Program-made: the position numbers and the translations under genes
Shown: piece by piece, positions 15,283 through 48,818 of the stretch
How positions within the stretch are numbered: position 1 is the first letter of the stretch
How the letters are laid out: every line of letters begins with the position of its first letter
Notes under the pieces: model-generated
Seen by the model: only the letters and a program-made list of their open reading frames with translations
What the model was told of the DNA's origin: nothing
Databases searched by the model: none
DNA from: Lachnospiraceae bacterium
GTDB lineage: Bacteria > Bacillota > Clostridia > Lachnospirales > Lachnospiraceae
Direction of reading: 5' to 3'
NCBI GenBank assembly: GCA_021199475.1
Contig: JAJQHZ010000035.1
Span: 1 to 48,818, forward strand
DNA: 48,818 bases

Positions 15283-17790
15283 ATGAAAGCAAATTTGATT
15301 TTGGCTGTGCTGGTTTTTTACCCGATAATCGGAGGACTGGCCGCCTGGGCACTGCGTAGCCTTGCCCCACGCGAAGCGTCTTCCAATGGGCAAGGCAATC
15401 TGCCGCCGAGCGAAGCGAGGGGGCGTTACCGCAGCAGCCTAGCCCCACGCGAAGCGTCTTCCAATGGGCAAGGCAGCCTGCAGCCGAGCGATAAAACAAT
15501 ACATTCCGCCGGGCAGTCCTTTCTTCCGACCGGAAGCGCGGCTGTGACGGATTTCGTGGCAATCACGGAATTTATCATGATGCTGGTTTTGTTCATCAGC
15601 AGTGCAGGGAAAGCCGAAAGCGGCTCTGTGATGTCATTGACTGTGCCCGGAATCTGCGGGCTCGGGCTGCACTTTACTCTGGACGGCTTCCGGCTGATTT
15701 ACGGGCTGATTGCCGGTCTGATGTGGATGATGACGGCGCTGCTGTGTCCGCAGTATTTTTCCTCGCATACGCAGCCCCGCCCCACGCGGAGCGAAGCCCG
15801 CGTCTTTCAAAGGGCGGGGCAAGATGCCGCCGAGCGAAGCGAGGGGGCGCTGCCGCAGCCGTCCCAGCATTCTCATCCGGCTCCGGACCGTTTCTATGTA
15901 TTTTTTCTGCTGACGCTCGGCGCGACGATGGGTGTCTTTCTGTCGGCGGATCTGTATACGACCTTTATCTTTTTCGAGATGATGTCCTTTACCTCCTATG
16001 TCTGGGTGGCGCATGAGGAAAACAATGCGGCGCTCCGGGCGGCGGACACGTACCTGACGGTGGCGGTGCTGGGCGGACTGGTGATGCTGATGGGCATTTT
16101 CGGCGTTTACCATGAGCTGGGCACGCTGACGATTTCGGAGCTTTCAGCCGCGGCGGCTGCCTATGAGAACAAGCCGGTGCTGTATGCGCTTGGCTGCTGT
16201 ATGTTCGTCGGCTTCGGCGCGAAGGCGGGCGCATTCCCGCTGCATATCTGGCTGCCGAAGGCGCACCCGGTGGCACCTGCCCCGGCGTCGGCGCTGCTTT
16301 CCGGTATCCTGACCAAGACGGGTATTTTTGGTATACTTGCCATCACGAGCGGCCTGTTTCTGTATGATAAAAACTGGGGCTCTCTGGTGCTGATAATCGG
16401 CGCAGCGACCATGTTTGGCGGCGCCTTGCTTGCAGTATTTTCGATTGACCTGAAGCGCACTCTTGCGTGCTCCTCGATGTCACAGATCGGGTTTATCCTG
16501 ATTGGCGTGGGGATGCAGTGCATGCTGGGGGAGGAAAATGCTCTGGCGGTGCACGGTACGCTGCTGCATATGATGAACCATTCGATGATTAAGCTGGTGC
16601 TGTTCATGGCGGCCGGTGTGATTTATATGAACCTGCACGCGCTCGACCTGAACGTGATTCGCGGGTTTGGCCGGAAAAAGCCTCTGCTGAAGGTCATTTT
16701 CCTGATCGGTGCGCTCGCCATCGGCGGAATCCCGATGTTTGGCGGCTACATCAGCAAAACCCTGCTTCACGAGAGTATTCTGGAGTATGGCGGCGGCTGG
16801 ATTTTCCGCGCGCTGGAATATCTGTTCCTGTTCAGCGGCGGATTGACGGTGGCATATATGACAAAGCTGTTTGTCGCTATTTTCGTCGAGAAAAACGCAG
16901 ACGACGCTTTGCAGAAAAAATATGATGCCATGAAGCACTATATGAACCCGATGAGCACATTTGCGCTCTCCGGCAGTGCACTGGTTCTTCTCATCTGGGG
17001 ACTGTTTCCGCACGGAATCATGGATCGGGCGGCCGAGCTCGGGCAGTCCTTTATGGGGCTGGAGGAATTCGGCCACGTGGTCAGCTATTTCAGCTGGAAA
17101 AATCTCTCCGGCGGCCTGATTTCCATCAGCATCGGTGTGATTGTCTATGTCTTCTTCATCCGAACCGTTCTGATGCGAGAGGAAGCACCGCTTCGCGGAA
17201 GTGCCGCGGTGAAACGCTCCGGACGCAGCAGCAAAGCGAAAGCATCCGGCCGGGGCAAAAAGGCGAAAGCAGGGACGGGCGGACGCAGTGCAGCCGCTGT
17301 GCGGCAGTACATCAACGCCTGGCCTTCCTGGCTGGATCTGGAAAACCTCATTTATCGTCCGCTGCTTCTGAAGCTTCTGCCGTTTGTATTTGGTGCGGCC
17401 TGCTCCGTGCTGGATAAATTGACGGACACGCTTGTGCGTATTTTAATTCCGGTGGGGCATGTACTGGCCCGTATCTTTGACAGCCTGGTCGATTTCTTTG
17501 TCGTGGGCCTGCGCAAGTCCGTTTATAAGGACTCGCCGATTCCCCATGAGCGTGTGGAAGGCACCTGGCTGACGGAGACGGCTGGTAAGCTTCTGAATGC
17601 GGTTCAGAAGCTGGCGAACCGCACTTGGAGACGGAGCAATCCTTCCGCGGTGGACTATCGGCGGGAGCTGGCGCTGCGCCATGACGTTTCAAGAGAGAGC
17701 AACACGGTCATCGGGCGGAGCCTGTCCTACGGGCTGCTGCTTGTGATCATCGGATTCTGTTTGACACTGGTGTATATTTTGTGGTGGTAG
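15283..17790 (+). CDS. Large antiporter subunit 4 with repeat-derived insertions
   Basis: Proton-antiporter membrane domain, 835 residues, much longer than the usual 500-ish. The core keeps Glu in TFIFFEMMSFTSYVW, Lys in GFGAKAGAFPLHIWLPKAHPVAPAP and IGGIPMFGGYISKTLLHES. Three extra segments are visible. About 50 residues (25-76), with a near-exact internal duplication, sit after the first helix. About 35 residues (165-200) follow PQYFSS. A Lys/Gly/Ser-rich stretch lies near 640-680. The first two come from dispersed GC-rich DNA repeats. The C-terminal 150 residues include hydrophobic and amphipathic segments and a last helix, recalling the lateral helix of NuoL (inference). GGAGGAAGAAAACG precedes the ATG. 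Confidence 0.88.
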   Translation: MKANLILAVLVFYPIIGGLAAWALRSLAPREASSNGQGNLPPSEARGRYRSSLAPREASSNGQGSLQPSDKTIHSAGQSFLPTGSAAVTDFVAITEFIMMLVLFISSAGKAESGSVMSLTVPGICGLGLHFTLDGFRLIYGLIAGLMWMMTALLCPQYFSSHTQPRPTRSEARVFQRAGQDAAERSEGALPQPSQHSHPAPDRFYVFFLLTLGATMGVFLSADLYTTFIFFEMMSFTSYVWVAHEENNAALRAADTYLTVAVLGGLVMLMGIFGVYHELGTLTISELSAAAAAYENKPVLYALGCCMFVGFGAKAGAFPLHIWLPKAHPVAPAPASALLSGILTKTGIFGILAITSGLFLYDKNWGSLVLIIGAATMFGGALLAVFSIDLKRTLACSSMSQIGFILIGVGMQCMLGEENALAVHGTLLHMMNHSMIKLVLFMAAGVIYMNLHALDLNVIRGFGRKKPLLKVIFLIGALAIGGIPMFGGYISKTLLHESILEYGGGWIFRALEYLFLFSGGLTVAYMTKLFVAIFVEKNADDALQKKYDAMKHYMNPMSTFALSGSALVLLIWGLFPHGIMDRAAELGQSFMGLEEFGHVVSYFSWKNLSGGLISISIGVIVYVFFIRTVLMREEAPLRGSAAVKRSGRSSKAKASGRGKKAKAGTGGRSAAAVRQYINAWPSWLDLENLIYRPLLLKLLPFVFGAACSVLDKLTDTLVRILIPVGHVLARIFDSLVDFFVVGLRKSVYKDSPIPHERVEGTWLTETAGKLLNAVQKLANRTWRRSNPSAVDYRRELALRHDVSRESNTVIGRSLSYGLLLVIIGFCLTLVYILWW
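15358..15495 (+). repeat. Palindromic repeat pair inserted inside the antiporter gene
   Basis: A 40-base unit at 15358-15397 recurs at 15436-15475 with a single mismatch (78-base period, 26 codons). Each unit folds as a hairpin (GCCTTGCC arm with GGGCAAGGC arm) and contains CGCGAAGCG. The 25-base core TGCCGCCGAGCGAAGCGAGG plus GGGCG lies at 15401-15425. Translation stays open, adding SLAPREASSNGQG twice between the first two membrane helices. Confidence 0.85.
15774..15860 (+). repeat. Second palindromic repeat insertion in the antiporter gene
   Basis: A nine-pair hairpin (15774-15782 with 15812-15820) encloses CGGAGCGAAGCCCGCG, followed by the 25-base core at 15825-15849, identical to the core at 15401-15425. 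Here the core is read as DAAERSEGA, whereas upstream it is read as LPPSEARG, a different frame. The element is therefore recognisable as DNA, not as a protein motif. Confidence 0.85.
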
Positions 17791-42909: not shown

Positions 42910-43251
42910 TGTGCATTAAAAAGCAGGAATAAAAGTTTACAGTGTTTACCGGCGTTCTGTACGGTTTCCGGGAGGGGAGAACCTGGATTTTCACTATGCC
43001 GGTCTGGTTTTACTGTAGACGATGCGGGTTACCGGTATATGTCCGTATTGGCGAAATGATTTTTCATTGCGTGGCTTGTACGCTGTGTCCGTATTCGCGA
43101 AGTGGATATGGATCTTCCAGGAAGAAATCTGGCGGTAAGCCCGAACTGTATCTGTGTCTGGTCAGGCTGTGGCCGATCCGCGGGGTTCAGCGGTCGGGGC
43201 GGCAGGGCGTAATGCGCCGGGGAGAGTATGGATAAATAGCAGAGGTGTTCT
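42910..43251 (+). repeat. Long murA leader with dispersed repeats
   Basis: About 340 bases. It holds ATGTCCGTATTGGCGAAATG (43038-43057) and TGTCCGTATTCGCGAAGTGGATATGGA (43086-43112), close relatives of the repeat at 48742-48768. A 97-codon frame crosses it, Cys-rich and without family similarity, probably spurious. The end has a weak ribosome site (AGAGGTGTTCT) for murA. Confidence 0.5.
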
Positions 43252-44544
43252 ATGGAACAGTATATTATCAGAGGAGGTATTCCACTGGTAGGTGAGGTGG
43301 AAATCTCCGGAGCGAAAAACGCGGCGCTCGGTATTCTTGCTGCGGCGATTATGACGGACGATACCGTGCTGATTGACAATCTGCCGGACGTCAGGGATAT
43401 CAATGTTCTTCTGGAAGCAATGGAGAGCATTGGCGTGCATGTGGACCGGATCACCCGCCATGCAGTCATGATGAACAGCAAGGATATTGGTGATGTCAGC
43501 GTTGATTATGAATATATTAAGAAAATCCGTGCGTCCTATTATCTGATTGGGGCGCTGCTTGGCAAATATAAAAAAGCGGAGGTGCCGCTTCCGGGCGGAT
43601 GCAACATCGGCAGCAGGCCAATCGACCTTCATATCAAAGGCTTTAAGGCTCTGGGTGCGAAGGTGACGATTCGGAACGGTTTCATTATCGCGAACGCGGA
43701 GCATCTGCATGGAAGCCATATTTATCTGGACACGGTTTCCGTCGGTGCAACCATCAATATTATGATGGCGGCTTCTCTGGCGGAAGGCTATACGATTATT
43801 GAAAACTGTGCGCGTGAGCCTCATGTGGTGGATGTGGCGAATTTCCTGAACAGTATGGGCGCGAATATCCGCGGCGCGGGCACAGACGTCATCCGTATCC
43901 GCGGGGTGGAGAGCCTTCACCGGACAGAGTATTCCATCATTCCGGACCAGATAGAGGCCGGTACCTTTATGTTTGCGGCTGCGGCGACCAAGGGCGATGT
44001 GATGGTGAAGAATGTGATCCCGAAGCATCTGGAGGCGACGACGGCGAAGCTTCTGGAGATTGACTGTGAGGTGGAGGAGTTTGACAATGCGGTTCGTGTT
44101 GTGGCTTCCAAACGCCCAAGCAGCACCAATGTCAAGACGCTCCCGTATCCGGGGTACCCGACGGATATGCAGCCTCAGATCAGCGTGACTCTTGCGATGG
44201 CGCGCGGCACCAGCATTGTGACCGAGAGCATTTTTGAGAATCGTTTTAAATATATGGATGAATTGACCCGTATGGGCGCCGATGTGCGCGTGGAAGGCAA
44301 TACGGCAATCATCACGGGGGTGGACACTCTGACCGGAGCGCGTGTCTCGGCGCCGGATCTTAGGGCAGGCGCGGCGCTTGTCATCGCCGGACTGGCGGCA
44401 GAGGGCATCACGACGATCGATGATATTATGTATATCCAGCGCGGATATGAACGGTTTGATGAGAAGCTTCGGAGCCTCGGGGCCGAGATTGAAAAGGTCA
44501 ACAGTGAGAAGGAAGCGATGAAGTTCCGCCTGCGGACGGGCTGA
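43252..44544 (+). CDS. murA: UDP-N-acetylglucosamine 1-carboxyvinyltransferase
   Basis: First committed step of peptidoglycan synthesis: transfers enolpyruvate from PEP to UDP-GlcNAc. 430 residues. SGAKNAAL holds the Lys-Asn pair near 23; the active-site Cys near 117 is in PLPGGCNIGSRPIDLH, so fosfomycin would be expected to react. PDQIEAGTFMFAAAATKGDV and PGYPTDMQPQ are conserved. Firmicutes often carry two copies (MurA and MurZ); this one cannot be assigned to a type by eye. A terminator follows within 40 bases. Confidence 0.95.
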   Translation: MEQYIIRGGIPLVGEVEISGAKNAALGILAAAIMTDDTVLIDNLPDVRDINVLLEAMESIGVHVDRITRHAVMMNSKDIGDVSVDYEYIKKIRASYYLIGALLGKYKKAEVPLPGGCNIGSRPIDLHIKGFKALGAKVTIRNGFIIANAEHLHGSHIYLDTVSVGATINIMMAASLAEGYTIIENCAREPHVVDVANFLNSMGANIRGAGTDVIRIRGVESLHRTEYSIIPDQIEAGTFMFAAAATKGDVMVKNVIPKHLEATTAKLLEIDCEVEEFDNAVRVVASKRPSSTNVKTLPYPGYPTDMQPQISVTLAMARGTSIVTESIFENRFKYMDELTRMGADVRVEGNTAIITGVDTLTGARVSAPDLRAGAALVIAGLAAEGITTIDDIMYIQRGYERFDEKLRSLGAEIEKVNSEKEAMKFRLRTG

Positions 44545-44580
44545 TACACTGATGTGCATGGATTGAATCAATGGAATCAG

Positions 44581-44613
44581 AGAACATCTGTTAAGAGCAG
44601 GTGTTCTTTTTTT
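44581..44613 (+). terminator. Intrinsic terminator of murA
   Basis: Stem AGAACATCTG at 44581-44590 with CAGGTGTTCT at 44598-44607 (one G-T pair), a seven-base loop and a T run to 44613. Confidence 0.88.
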
Positions 44614-44780
44614 GCGCGAAGCGTAGGATGCCCTGAAGATTGGGAGCATAATCCGGCGAGGGAATATCCCGTGCGAAGAGTAGGAGGCCCACACCCCGCA
44701 ATCAGAGATCGGGGATATAACCCGGCGAGGGAATATCCCATGCGAAGCGTGGGATGCCTCCCGGCGAGGGAGAAACGTGT
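44614..44780 (+). repeat. Cluster of dispersed palindromic repeats
   Basis: Three related modules: GCGCGAAGCGTAGGATGCC (44614-44632), AATATCCCGTGCGAAGAGTAGG (from about 44662) and AATATCCCATGCGAAGCGTGGG (from about 44732), each near CCGGCGAGGGA. Fragments are near-identical to the lon leader repeat (ATCCCGTGCGAAGCGCGGGAT). They separate murA from the candidate RNA gene. Nothing coding is seen. Confidence 0.65.
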
Positions 44781-44861
44781 GTTGTCGGTGTACAGCGGCC
44801 GTGCGGCGGGCATGAGATGCAAGATGCATGAATTGTCTGGAAAATATATACTTTTCGTAAA

Positions 44862-44957
44862 AATAAGACAAAAATAAAGAAGAAAAACAATTCGAATAAA
44901 AATAATTAAATAAATTTTCAAAAAAGTGTTGACAAATCAAAAAAGCTGTGATATAGT
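44862..44957 (+). promoter_or_regulatory. Strong sigma-A promoter with A/T-rich upstream element
   Basis: TTGACA at 44929-44934, a 17-base spacer, TATAGT at 44952-44957, one base from consensus. About 65 bases immediately upstream are almost entirely A and T in short tracts, like the UP element of stable-RNA promoters. No ribosome site or gene follows. This is among the strongest promoters in the window. Confidence 0.88.
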
Positions 44958-45670
44958 ACAACCATCAACAAAACACATTGTTGTTCCTATAGATCAAAAC
45001 CCTATAGACGATGACATGGCAAAGGAGAGGAGGTCGATTCCAGTGGACACAGTCTCACATATATTAGCAGAACACAGATGTGGCGGGATGCATGTTTCCT
45101 GTGAAAAAGACCTCAGTCAGAACTGATTCAAGAGCTATCGTAAGAGAACGATGAATGGAGAGAAAAAAGAATCGGCTGGCTGAGCACATGAATCCCATGA
45201 AGAAAAAGCGAACTCGCAGGTTCGCCAATCGTATACAACCGTATACAAAGAGAAAAATAAATAGACGAATGTGAAAGTAGAATGCGGGAAATGCAGAAAT
45301 GCAGAAATGAAATAGAGTGCATAGATAAGGGCAGAAGTAAAACGTAAAAAAATGTGGAGTGGAAAGTGGCCTGTGCTGCCAAGGTTCAGTATAAGTCATT
45401 CATAGATAATCCGGAGGAACGGATTTGATTCACAAAAGAGATTCAGACGAGAAATGAGTCCACGTTTTAGAAAAATCTGCACAGCACAAAGGACAGGTTT
45501 TGATAGAAACCGACAGGTATTCGTATACCACTTAAAGAAGTGATGATGATACGAAAAAAACCGCATTCGTAATGGGAGAGAATCTGCAGGAAATCTGTAA
45601 AAAGATTTTGCAGGAAGATTCTATAAGAAGATAAAATGTTTCATAATGAAACAACATAAGAGAAAGCACC

Positions 45671-45744
45671 ATTCAGAGGAAAAAGAATGAAGCGGTGCAG
45701 TAAGATATCACATTCGCAGTGAGATTCAGAGAAAAAAGAATGAA
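45671..45744 (+). repeat. Internal direct repeat of the candidate RNA
   Basis: A 21-base purine-rich word starting ATTCAGAGGAAAAAGAATG at 45671-45691 recurs at 45724-45744 with one difference. A short tandem, ATGCAGAA twice, also lies at 45291-45306. Confidence 0.75.
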
Positions 45745-45890
45745 TTCACAAATCAAAAACAGCCACATGATTTATAAAAGAAGTCATTCGTGTAAAGAAA
45801 CGATCGATTGATTTTATAAATAAACAGGAAGAACTCTCTCCATAGATAAATAATATATAATAAAAAGAAATGAATTTAATTTCTAAATAG

Positions 45891-45920
45891 AAAAAGGAGG
45901 ACTGGAACGTCCTCCTTTTT
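45891..45920. terminator. Strong bidirectional terminator
   Basis: Eleven perfect pairs, AAAAAGGAGGA at 45891-45901 with 45910-45920, one further C-G pair and a six-base loop. The T run at the end serves the plus-strand RNA; the A run serves the convergent gene, whose stop codon begins ten bases on. Confidence 0.92.
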
Positions 45921-45929
45921 GCAGCGCTT

Positions 45930-48686
45930 TCAGTGCTTTTTGACCATGGACATCTCGTGTTCCAGCATGATCGGGTAGATCCTCTCACAGTTGTTGTTGT
46001 CGGAGAAAGCGAAAAAGTCATCCGCGCGCCGACGGTACTCGTCGGGCATCCGGCAGTCGTTTTTCATATACTCGCAGAGCACGTCGATCAGCTCGTCGTT
46101 TGTATGGCAGATTTCTCCGAATCCCATTGTATCGTAAAAGAAGGTGCCTTCCTCATAGTGCTGCGGGATGTCATGATGGTGAAGATAAACGACCGGCTTC
46201 CGCATATAGGCAAAGTCAAACTGTACGCCGGAAAAATCGGTTACCATCAGAGCGGCTTCGCAGAACAGCTTTTCGTAGCTCATATCGCCGATCGACGGGA
46301 TAATCTCGACCCGGTCATTTCTGGTAAAGTCTTTCACCTGCGGACTGATGAGCGGGTGCAGCACATATTGGATGCGGTATCCGTATCGGGACGCGGCATC
46401 GAGAAGCCTTGGGTCATTGATCAGGCCGTTGTAAACACGGTAGTAGCTGGTTGATTTAAAGTGCGGGTTATATTTGCGCGCATTCGACTCTCCATGCTCA
46501 GCGGGTAGTACGGAATTCATACGCCAGGTCGGAGAGAGAAGCAGGATTTTCTGCGCGCGGCTTTTCAACCCGTCATAGCGCGGGACGCCAGTCAGCTTCA
46601 GCGCATCATAGCCGACGTAATCGTAGGCCGGCTTTGAAAGATTTTCAATCTCATATTTTGAGGCACAGAAATAGAGCTTTGTATTGTCTCTCAGGCGCTG
46701 CTGCGCAATCGCTATTTTCTGAACCGACATTCCGTGCTGTACACAGGCGGTATCAAAATGAATTCCGCCGCGGATCGCACGCGAAGTATCGGCGCTGTAG
46801 CTGTTAAACGCAAAAACCGTCGAATTGGAAGCAATCACCATGTCCGCGTTGAGAAAAATCAGGCGGTGGCGGATGCTTCCGCGCCGCAGCGGATGGTAGC
46901 CCTCTTTTTGCAGGCGGGCATAATCTGCGGAGGACGAATCAAGGAGGTAGTATTTTCGTATTCCGTCCTTCTGTGCGGCGGCGTATTTGTAGATATATTC
47001 CGAAGAATCGCCGCCCTTATAGATTTTGTCCATAAACAGCCAGATGCGCTGTCTGGAAAACCACGGCTGCAGGAGGAAATTGACGATTTTCAGAGGAAGA
47101 TATTTGCGGCCGATTTTCTTTTTGACCATCTCTGCCCAGAGGGCAGTCTCTTCCCGGAGTACGCGGGACCTGGAGGAGGGGCAGATATGAATCCGTCTGC
47201 CATCCTGCAGGGCCAGATAGTTTCCGAAACGCCAGTAGCCATGGTCCAGATTGTCTGCAAAGCGGCTGAAGCTGGACATAAAAGCCAGATCCATCGTATA
47301 TTCCGGGAGCGCCGTATTATTTGAGCCGGATGCCTCGGGCACATTCCTGCCTCCATTGCCTGTTTCGGAGCCGGATGTCTTCACTGCCTGTCCGGATAAA
47401 CCGGCAGGAACGGCTCCCTGGCCGACTTTTCGAATCTGGAAGCAGAGGATCCGTTCGGCAGATGAAGAACGGTTCGATGGATCACGATTGTCATCGATGG
47501 GAATCGAAATATGAAACGTTTTTGCACGGAAAAAGGAGGTTCCGAAATATTTTGTCAGCGAATATCGGTGGTTGTAGACCGGATGATAGCAGGCGGAATC
47601 GAACCGGGCAAAGATCTCGATGCTGCCCTCCGGAAAAAAATCCTCATAGGAACCGTCGATTTCCAGACATCCGTTTCGATAATCAATCTGGCGAATATGG
47701 ATCTGCACATCGTCCAGAGTGGCAAACACAATCCCGTCGCAGGTGAGCGCAATGGTATTGTCGGTATATTCCGGCTGCGGATACCACGACCAGTCCTTCC
47801 GTTTCATGCGCAGCAGAAGCAGCTGCAGGGACGGCGGAGCATAGGACGTCTGTACACTGCGGTCAAGAATGGCTTCGATGCTGACGTACTGGAGCACCTC
47901 CGAGAGAAGCTCCGTGTAGGAAACGACCGCTTCAGGCTCGATCACATGCCGGTTGCGGTTGTCAACGTTTGCCTGAAAACGGGAGGAAATCATATACAGT
48001 GCCAGATGCTGAAGCATGAGCGGAACCTGACCCTGCTCTTTTTTCGCCCTCGAAAGGACAGGAAGCAGGAAGTCTTCCATTGACGTATAGTACCACTCTC
48101 TGGTGAGCGGGCGGACATCATACTGAGGGGTGGCCTCACAGGGAAGAACGTAGTCGATTTCGCAGGAACCCGCATAGGTAAAGCGCGGGTTGCGGGCAAG
48201 AAGAGACAGTAAAATCATTTTTTCCCGCTCAAAGGATTCCGGTGTTTCCTGTACCGCCTGTACAAGCGGCTGTGTCTGAAAAAGGAGCCCATGAAGGACG
48301 GCAGGGAATATGACCGGATTCTTGCCGGCATCCAGCTGAAGGGTCTTTTTTTGCGGCAGCAGGGAAAAGGCTTCTACGAGCCGATGATAGTCCTGAAAGA
48401 TCTGAGACGGCATAATAAAAACGCTGTCCCGGGAATCGGCTGCTGCAAGAAGCTCCTGAAGAAGGGACTTTGAAAACCGGTCCCCAACATCGAGGAAAAT
48501 CGTATATGTGCCTCTGGCCTCTGAAATCCTTGCCAGCGTCTGTGCACGCGGATTATACGGGTCCGATTCGGAAACCGGAATGACCTGAATGCGGTCAGAG
48601 CTGATGGACTGCGCAGGGAACTCCGGCACCGGGTCGTCAGACTCATGCAGTGCGTAGAATATAGTGACATCATACGGATGATTCAT
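45930..48686 (-). CDS. CDP-glycerol glycerophosphotransferase-like protein (TagF family)
   Basis: 918 residues, probably a membrane-associated polymerase of glycerol-phosphate-containing wall or surface polymers. The C-terminal half (about 530-915) matches the family: ACVQHGMSVQKIAIAQQRLRDN, LLLSPTWRMN, YVLHPLISPQVKDF and VTDFSGVQFDFAYMRKPVVYL. The N-terminal 250 residues look like a reduced GT-A glycosyltransferase (ARISEARGTYTIFLDVGDRFS in place of the usual DxD region), maybe non-catalytic. A Gly/Ser-rich insert (about 455-490) lies before the catalytic part. The chosen ATG has AAAGGA about ten bases upstream; an in-frame start 32 codons earlier runs through repeat DNA. The exact donor is unknown. 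Confidence 0.85.
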   Translation of the reverse strand: MNHPYDVTIFYALHESDDPVPEFPAQSISSDRIQVIPVSESDPYNPRAQTLARISEARGTYTIFLDVGDRFSKSLLQELLAAADSRDSVFIMPSQIFQDYHRLVEAFSLLPQKKTLQLDAGKNPVIFPAVLHGLLFQTQPLVQAVQETPESFEREKMILLSLLARNPRFTYAGSCEIDYVLPCEATPQYDVRPLTREWYYTSMEDFLLPVLSRAKKEQGQVPLMLQHLALYMISSRFQANVDNRNRHVIEPEAVVSYTELLSEVLQYVSIEAILDRSVQTSYAPPSLQLLLLRMKRKDWSWYPQPEYTDNTIALTCDGIVFATLDDVQIHIRQIDYRNGCLEIDGSYEDFFPEGSIEIFARFDSACYHPVYNHRYSLTKYFGTSFFRAKTFHISIPIDDNRDPSNRSSSAERILCFQIRKVGQGAVPAGLSGQAVKTSGSETGNGGRNVPEASGSNNTALPEYTMDLAFMSSFSRFADNLDHGYWRFGNYLALQDGRRIHICPSSRSRVLREETALWAEMVKKKIGRKYLPLKIVNFLLQPWFSRQRIWLFMDKIYKGGDSSEYIYKYAAAQKDGIRKYYLLDSSSADYARLQKEGYHPLRRGSIRHRLIFLNADMVIASNSTVFAFNSYSADTSRAIRGGIHFDTACVQHGMSVQKIAIAQQRLRDNTKLYFCASKYEIENLSKPAYDYVGYDALKLTGVPRYDGLKSRAQKILLLSPTWRMNSVLPAEHGESNARKYNPHFKSTSYYRVYNGLINDPRLLDAASRYGYRIQYVLHPLISPQVKDFTRNDRVEIIPSIGDMSYEKLFCEAALMVTDFSGVQFDFAYMRKPVVYLHHHDIPQHYEEGTFFYDTMGFGEICHTNDELIDVLCEYMKNDCRMPDEYRRRADDFFAFSDNNNCERIYPIMLEHEMSMVKKH

Positions 48687-48720
48687 ACAACAGGAATCCT
48701 TTCTTTCAATAGATATAAAG

Positions 48721-48818
48721 ATTGCGCGGCTTCCATTACAGGTCCGTATTCGCGAAGCGGATATGGACGAAGGCCGCGCCAAATCGCGAAGCGATTTTTA
48801 AATTGCGCGGCTTCCATT
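48721..48818. repeat. Repeat element with flanking 17-base direct repeats
   Basis: ATTGCGCGGCTTCCATT at 48721-48737 recurs exactly at 48802-48818. Between them are hairpins with CGAAG loops: 48742-48768 (11 pairs with two G-T) and AAATCGCGAAGCGATTT at 48781-48797. The element continues to the window edge. It lies upstream of the minus-strand transferase gene and belongs to the GCGAAGC-type family. Confidence 0.75.

Follow-up and report, generated by a model that had tools for sequence, protein, structure and literature searches.

A large structured RNA with a small reading frame in its 5' domain, from an apparently undescribed family of the Lachnospiraceae

The locus and its transcription signals

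The window, i.e., the whole stretch of 48,818 nucleotides that was analysed, is one contig (C7) of a 3.8-Mb draft assembly of a Lachnospiraceae bacterium in 165 contigs. The RNA locus lies between a plus-strand gene at 43252-44544, which we take to be murA from a reading of its protein rather than from a family search, and a convergent minus-strand reading frame at 45930-48782, the product of which is CDP-glycerol glycerophosphotransferase-like (Pfam Glyphos_transf match). The features of the locus, all on the plus strand, are as follows; A1 denotes the alignment from the genus of the window, and 'cells paired' the share of alignment cells in a helix that can pair.

44929..44957, plus strand: sigma-A-type promoter (TTGACA, 17-nt spacer, TG-extended TATAGT), below an A/T-rich stretch
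44966..44983, plus strand: 5'-end hairpin CAACAA...UUGUUG, a perfect 6-pair stem; helix 1 of A1, 100% of cells paired
45029..45035, plus strand: Shine-Dalgarno sequence GGAGGUC; GGAGG is found in 65 of 75 family members
45030-45035 with 45109..45114, plus strand: helix C, 5' strand in the Shine-Dalgarno sequence, 3' strand GACCUC in codons 23-24 of the ORF; from a permutation test
45043..45126, plus strand: conserved small ORF MDTVSHILAEHRCGGMHVSCEKDLSQN, GTG start, 27 codons plus TGA; from frame conservation
45086..45095 with 45186..45195, plus strand: long-range helix 4 of A1, 5' strand inside the ORF; 9 pairs, 4 changed on both sides, 98.2% of cells paired, 32 sequences
45112..45119 with 45177-45184, plus strand: helix 6 of A1; 7 pairs, 5 changed on both sides, 99.6% of cells paired
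45137..45152, plus strand: hairpin AUCGU...ACGAU; helix 8 of A1, 94.5% of cells paired
45155..45163 with 45835..45843, plus strand: long-range helix B, AUGGAGAGA with UCUCUCCAU, a perfect 9-nt complement
45208..45225, plus strand: hairpin GCGAAC-UCGCAG-GUUCGC, from the hairpin scan
45440..45460, plus strand: hairpin bearing the recurrent 9-nt loop GACGAGAAA (45446-45454); loop in 47 of 102 members
45770..45821, plus strand: 3' conserved domain, stem AUUUAUAAAA/UUUUAUAAAU enclosing CGUGUAAAGAAACG; the loop motif is present in 61 of 102 members and in none on the complement
45891..45920, plus strand: intrinsic terminator AAAAAGGAGGACTGGAACGTCCTCCTTTTT, 12 perfect pairs, ending in a U-run

A preliminary description of this DNA had claimed a near-consensus sigma-A promoter and about 955 transcribed bases ending in a 12-pair terminator, and both claims were indeed borne out by the sequence. 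The promoter boxes (TTGACA at 44929-44934 and TATAGT at 44952-44957) agree with the consensus at 11 of 12 positions, and the promoter ranks first of the 11 promoter-like sites in 43000-48818, where shuffled sequences gave 6.3 sites (sd 2.5); we infer a transcription start near 44964. Both a TTGACA and a TGnTAnnnT box were found in 31 of 34 homologous loci, and a promoter-like site lies upstream of 61 of 72 members of the wider family, compared to 6 of 72 on the complement. At the other end, all 12 pairs of the terminator at 45891-45920 are perfect, and a terminator-like site, taken as the first one detected, occurs in 25 of the 34 close homologous loci. The RNA lengths predicted among the homologous loci range from 453 to 1226 nt, and thus the window copy would be a long version of a shorter core. 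By eye, the phrase ccggcgagggaatatccc was seen twice between murA and the RNA, at 44653 and 44722, and is perhaps a small intergenic repeat.

Distribution of the family and its relation to catalogued RNAs

By blastn, the RNA was found in 41 of 98 related genomes, these being 41 of the 47 genomes of the genus (its own included) and none of the 51 outside it. Six genus genomes, which are drafts, had no copy by either blastn or the covariance model R1, and one of the 41 (G010) gave a blastn match in the 3' part only and no match to R1. Conservation is highest over the first 263 nt and the last 200 nt, and the middle is variable. The impression of a genus-restricted RNA, gained from blastn alone, was overturned by covariance models, which matched in many genera. 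R1, a model of the 5' domain built from 32 sequences, matched nine of 397 Lachnospiraceae genomes; two of these belong to the genus and six to other genera, and the ninth match (L118) was judged false when its sequence was read. For R2, 12 distant members were used (11 from nine other genera, plus L046, a named contig), none of them in the R1 alignment; this model recovers the window RNA at 57.7 bits (E ~1e-12) and matches 90 of the 397 genomes and 77 of 334 genera, the weakest of these matches (E ~1e-4 and above, some spanning 55-115 nt) being possibly due to chance. For the family counts, R2 matches of ~48 bits or more were aligned (77 matches, 75 distinct sequences), and weaker ones were dropped.

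The specificity of R2 was seen in 677 kb of murA-flanking loci together with the window, in which it found only the window and one marginal site. Among 196 genomes sampled from the order, family genomes included, four matched, all of them Lachnospiraceae, and a class sample of 147 genomes also gave four, two in the Lachnospiraceae and two outside (L234, L235), the latter at E ~1e-3 and left uncounted. A tight DNA pattern matched ten of the 397 genomes; one of these matches, L159, reads as an ordinary gene start. Five genomes have two R2 matches, namely G166 (L204, L208), G053, G197, G274, and G333; the second matches in G053 and G274 are weak, and neither copy in G166 has an intact ORF frame. 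A short form was also observed at L150:1300-1600 (reverse strand), with the same Shine-Dalgarno sequence and start hairpin, a 10-codon ORF, and a terminator-like hairpin directly after it, without the long structured 3' part.

The RNA loci have murA, tagF-like, TPR, and other housekeeping-type genes as neighbours, and most of these loci look chromosomal. In a viral collection, a search with an exact 21-base pattern of the family hit a single contig, at the edge of a provirus. This contig (L237:1-1860) starts at the start codon of the small ORF, and on its other strand, just 3' of the RNA end, the ORF at 715-1860 encodes a phage integrase (Pfam PF00589, 29.8 bits); the 3' end of the RNA may be used as an integration site.

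The Rfam search that had been proposed as a check was run, and no Rfam family matches the RNA, either in the window or in the loci of relatives. Rfam 15 (4227 models) includes the models of GOLLD, ROOL, OLE, RNAIII, and tmRNA. At gathering thresholds, the window gave only two matches, neither at the RNA; at E up to 10, the RNA region gave 15, none near its threshold and all chance-like. On the loci of 12 relatives, at E up to 1, there were five matches, the best at 35.1 bits where 88 are needed, with no family recurring at the RNA, and on 20 further loci there were none. The two matches elsewhere in the window are to the GA-cis RNA (RF02987; 53.2 and 45 bits, gathering threshold 34.7), at 15355-15434 and 15770-15858 of the plus strand; they lie inside a long plus-strand ORF (15283-17790), an odd place for an RNA motif. 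ARAGORN found no tmRNA gene and no tRNA in the window. Literature searches returned no description of the RNA or its peptide in the source excerpts, and parts of the family may appear in the tables of PMC8040213 (3161 candidate RNAs) and PMC11109978. By the searches named, the RNA is a member of a conserved, apparently undescribed, Lachnospiraceae-wide RNA family.

The small reading frame and the fold

The preliminary description had seen no credible gene in the transcribed bases, which was corrected by the finding of the conserved 27-codon ORF at 45043-45126 with its Shine-Dalgarno sequence. A conserved protein frame across the region had been named as an argument against the claim, and the frame is indeed conserved, but over 84 nt only. 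The ORF sits in the best-conserved part of the RNA, and an alignment of 33 close relatives shows an invariant TGA, no stop within the frame, and gaps of 3 or 6 nt only. In the wider family, the ORF was parsed by regular expression in 68 of 75 members, five of the others being close relatives without the QY element and two being unparsable; L176 and L181 were misparsed, and both were in frame by eye. Start and QY element are in frame in 66 of the 68 (the corrected L181 included), 24-36 nt apart, through some 18 length changes on the tree. The start codons, all at one position, are ATG in 32, TTG in 31, and GTG in 5 members. Between start and QY, stops make up 5 of 519 codons in frame, compared to 48 of 454 and 27 of 453 in the other frames, and the frame is open through QY in 62 of the 68. 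The ORF is not intact in eight of the 75 members (L178, L204, L208, L215, L216, L219, L223, and L224), of which seven keep 9-10 of the 10 pairs of helix A, described below; L215 does not.

Evidence for the peptide itself was sought by an RNAcode-like count in the genus, in which synonymous codon pairs were not enriched in frame (43/508, compared to 40/328 and 36/354 in the other frames) and the in-frame BLOSUM sum was no better than that of the other frames. Over all 26 codons, the changes at codon positions 1, 2, and 3 numbered 69, 62, and 80; a third-position excess (10, 13, and 29) was found only in codons selected as conserved. Pfam and NCBIfam gave no family for the peptides tried. Since the residues conserved family-wide (MD, QY, SG, SL/DL) coincide with RNA elements, and the codon count gave no signal, these results support an open, probably translated frame more than a conserved peptide.

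The covariation in homologues that had been proposed as a check is present, in helix A, in the genus helices, and in helix C. In helix A, the ORF segment UUCAAUAUG pairs with CAUAUUGAA well 3' of the ORF; over the 75 distinct sequences, 94.9% of cells are paired and nine of the ten pairs have changed on both sides. The alignment was fitted to the model, but a MAFFT alignment of 12 sequences agrees with it. When the partners were slid against each other, the two-helix structure fell from 90.0% to 23-46% paired. The window copy has only five of the ten pairs at the aligned place, so that helix A is not formed there; its genus has its own helices instead (45086-45095/45186-45195 and 45112-45119/45177-45184), and in our reading the genus helix corresponds to helix A of the family. 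The genus structure holds 11 double-changed pairs, compared to 3.8 in shuffles, as counted on the same alignment (A1) from which it was predicted.

Helix C takes the form GAGGUC/GACCUC in the window, and GGAGGCUUA/UAAGCCUU and AGGAGGUUAUU/GAAUAGCCUUU in other members. The duplex energy of the 74 members with their own partners was -9.2, compared to -8.1 (sd 0.19) with permuted ones, a value reached in 0 of 20000 permutations. GACCUC at 45109-45114 overlaps the 5' strand of the 45112-45119 helix, and therefore the two helices would compete. Helix B is represented across the family by AAUCGGAG/CUCCGAUU and by the compensated forms AAUCAGAG/CUCUGAUU, AAUCGAAG/CUUCGAUU, and AAUUGGAG/CUCCAAUU. A permutation test on broad segments failed for this helix (5748 of 20000), and a narrower 8-mer test, run after the broad one on sites picked by consensus, gave 1 of 20000; in the window, helix B stands on the 9-nt complement, a pair that the automatic 8-mer test of the family did not pick. 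We read the order of the helices as making them cross, so that pseudoknots would form.

The window RNA as a whole is predicted to fold with a minimum free energy of -246.8, compared to -180.9 (sd 7.5) in shuffles (z = -8.8; 0 of 60 shuffles as low), while six other 961-nt pieces of the same contig, serving as controls with 20 shuffles each, gave z from +0.7 to -4.3. The complement, too, has a stable predicted fold (z = -5.8), because perfect hairpins are symmetric. Taken by parts, the variable middle gives the strongest signal (z = -6.4), and the 5' part on its own gives a weak one (z = -1.7). Perfect hairpins with a stem of at least 5 and a loop of 3-8 number 12 in 44964-45924, compared to 4.35 (sd 1.87) in 100 dinucleotide shuffles, and those with a stem of at least 6 number 8, compared to 1.16 (sd 0.92). 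The earlier figure of at least ten exact hairpins within about 550 bases is slightly high by this count, as the densest 550 bases hold nine (stem of at least 5, loop 3-8). Helix 1 of A1 is nearly invariant, and for this reason the 5'-end hairpin offers no covariation. The GACGAGAAA loop was found 0 times on the complement; the stems beneath it, of 2 to 13 pairs, are paired but differ widely in sequence between genera, and its place also varies, being upstream of the Shine-Dalgarno sequence in some genera and mid-RNA in others. The loop motif of the 3' domain is G[UA]G[UA][AG]AAGAAAC.

Interpretation and comparison with known systems

The locus had been described as a candidate giant noncoding RNA, possibly of a new class, and much of this holds: the RNA is large, ornate, independently promoted, conserved, and covarying, and has no Rfam match. 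'Noncoding', however, is probably wrong in view of the frame-conserved ORF, and the RNA, with a small ORF woven into its fold, is probably not purely noncoding. Judged from the sequence, the locus has what defines the large ornate RNAs, namely an RNA gene that is long and independent and whose structure covaries extensively, and also what defines dual-function RNAs, a conserved small ORF within a structured RNA, seen here in the conservation of frame, start, and stop. We tentatively favor, at a probability of a little under one half (roughly 0.47), a dual-function and possibly translation-gated large RNA of a new family, in which translation of the ORF would serve as a switch or yield a second product.

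In such a mechanism, the locus would yield an independent RNA of about 955 nt, the 5' domain of which encloses the micro-ORF, and the Shine-Dalgarno sequence could be sequestered by pairing, in helix C, with the 3' part of the ORF itself. A long-range helix would join the middle of the ORF, as its 5' strand, to sequence past the stop codon, and between the strands of that helix would lie the 5' strand of the still longer helix B, reaching the 3' end of the RNA. A ribosome crossing the presumably translated ORF would have to melt these helices; translation may thereby remodel the RNA, or the fold may limit translation. The weaving of the ORF into the fold points to a mutual influence of translation and RNA folding. 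Action in trans might be expected of the folded RNA, through pairing or by serving as a scaffold that binds proteins, a guess made because its promoter and terminator are independent. The RNA part is probably primary relative to the ORF, since the RNA persists where the ORF is broken. A more specific and rather unlikely version holds that the ORF is maintained because it is translated and not because of the peptide, ribosomes opening and closing the fold of a large RNA machine in which the ORF is one strand of a pseudoknot; if true, the RNA would inform the cell of its translation status, which would be a new class of mechanism.

The codon count without a coding signal and the missing helix A of the window copy weigh against the dual-function reading and toward an RNA of the GOLLD/ROOL/OLE kind with a purely structural or scaffold role, in which the ORF would be incidental, the conserved codons would be RNA elements, and ribosomes would hardly matter. 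Such an RNA would naturally have the strong fold observed (z = -8.8) and conserved residues that coincide with RNA elements, and could tolerate a broken ORF, as in the eight members mentioned above, seven with helix A retained. It does not account for a start codon at one position, a frame kept through many length changes with few in-frame stops, or the GGAGG of 65 of the 75 members, and we regard it as doubtful, while taking it seriously. By another explanation, the RNA is RNAIII-like: its peptide would have a function of its own, and C-rich (anti-SD) segments of the RNA, the terminator arm GUCCUCCUUUU for example, would serve to repress mRNAs in trans. The anatomy is alike, with an internal small peptide gene, many stem-loops, and long-distance helices, as given in the excerpt of PMC3861533, and of the 25 terminators detected among the 34 close loci, 20 were seen by eye to have GGAG in the 5' arm; CTCC, however, is in none of the 45 terminators found in members from other genera, so that the C-rich arm is no family feature, and this explanation appears improbable.

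It is also conceivable that the RNA is a cis-acting leader or attenuator for a downstream gene, with the ORF as leader peptide, the gene being that of a TPR protein in many genera. Among the 46 genomes having both an R2 match and a TPR-protein match among the matches listed, the TPR gene lies on the same strand within 2 kb downstream in 22 and within 6 kb in five, but is unlinked in 19, the window's own genome among them. The next gene in the window is convergent (45930-48782, minus strand), and the RNA ends at a terminator, which in L114, L119, and L143 was seen by eye to be followed by a TTGACA promoter before the TPR gene. Thus, no consistent position upstream of one regulated gene was found, and a cis-acting role is quite improbable. 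The remaining explanation, a type I toxin mRNA, i.e., a structured message for a toxic peptide with its Shine-Dalgarno sequence sequestered, draws on the sequestration and long-range pairing that are typical of such mRNAs; the peptides here, however, are short and look hydrophilic by inspection, several having only 15-16 residues, and we consider a toxin very improbable.

To our knowledge, few families of bacterial RNAs of this size have been described, several of them without an assigned function. The present family is spread over the 77 of 334 sampled Lachnospiraceae genera given above, and an ORF serving at the same time as one strand of conserved long-range helices offers a testable link from translation to the folding of a large RNA. 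All dual-function sRNAs known to us are smaller than the window RNA.

By Rfam and the other comparisons made, the RNA is of a new family that is analogous to RNAIII, GOLLD, ROOL, and OLE and a member of none. Its nearest analogue in anatomy, by the available excerpt, is RNAIII of Staphylococcus aureus, a 514-nt regulatory RNA that forms 14 stem-loops and three long-distance helices and has a small peptide gene inside it (PMC3861533). It differs from RNAIII in lacking an Rfam match, in its bacteria and its locus, and in being nearly twice as long, and its peptide was not seen to resemble haemolysin. In size and ornateness, the nearest analogues are GOLLD and ROOL, very large ornate bacterial RNAs with no function assigned in the excerpt of PMC12286853. 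Both are encoded by phages or prophages, often close to tRNA islands, whereas the window has no tRNA and the loci of the present family have housekeeping-type neighbours, with a single viral contig matched by the exact 21-base pattern; it also differs from GOLLD and ROOL in having no Rfam match and in carrying an ORF. OLE works in a ribonucleoprotein complex, and we know of no ORF embedded in it. It is a large structured RNA of ~600 nt from extremophilic or anaerobic Gram-positive bacteria, as given in the excerpt of PMC9723947, and its model likewise gave no Rfam match to the RNA described here. Finally, VcdRP is an sRNA with a small protein of 29 amino acids (excerpt of PMC8672173); the present RNA is like it in carrying a small ORF and unlike it in that the ORF forms a strand of covarying long-range helices.
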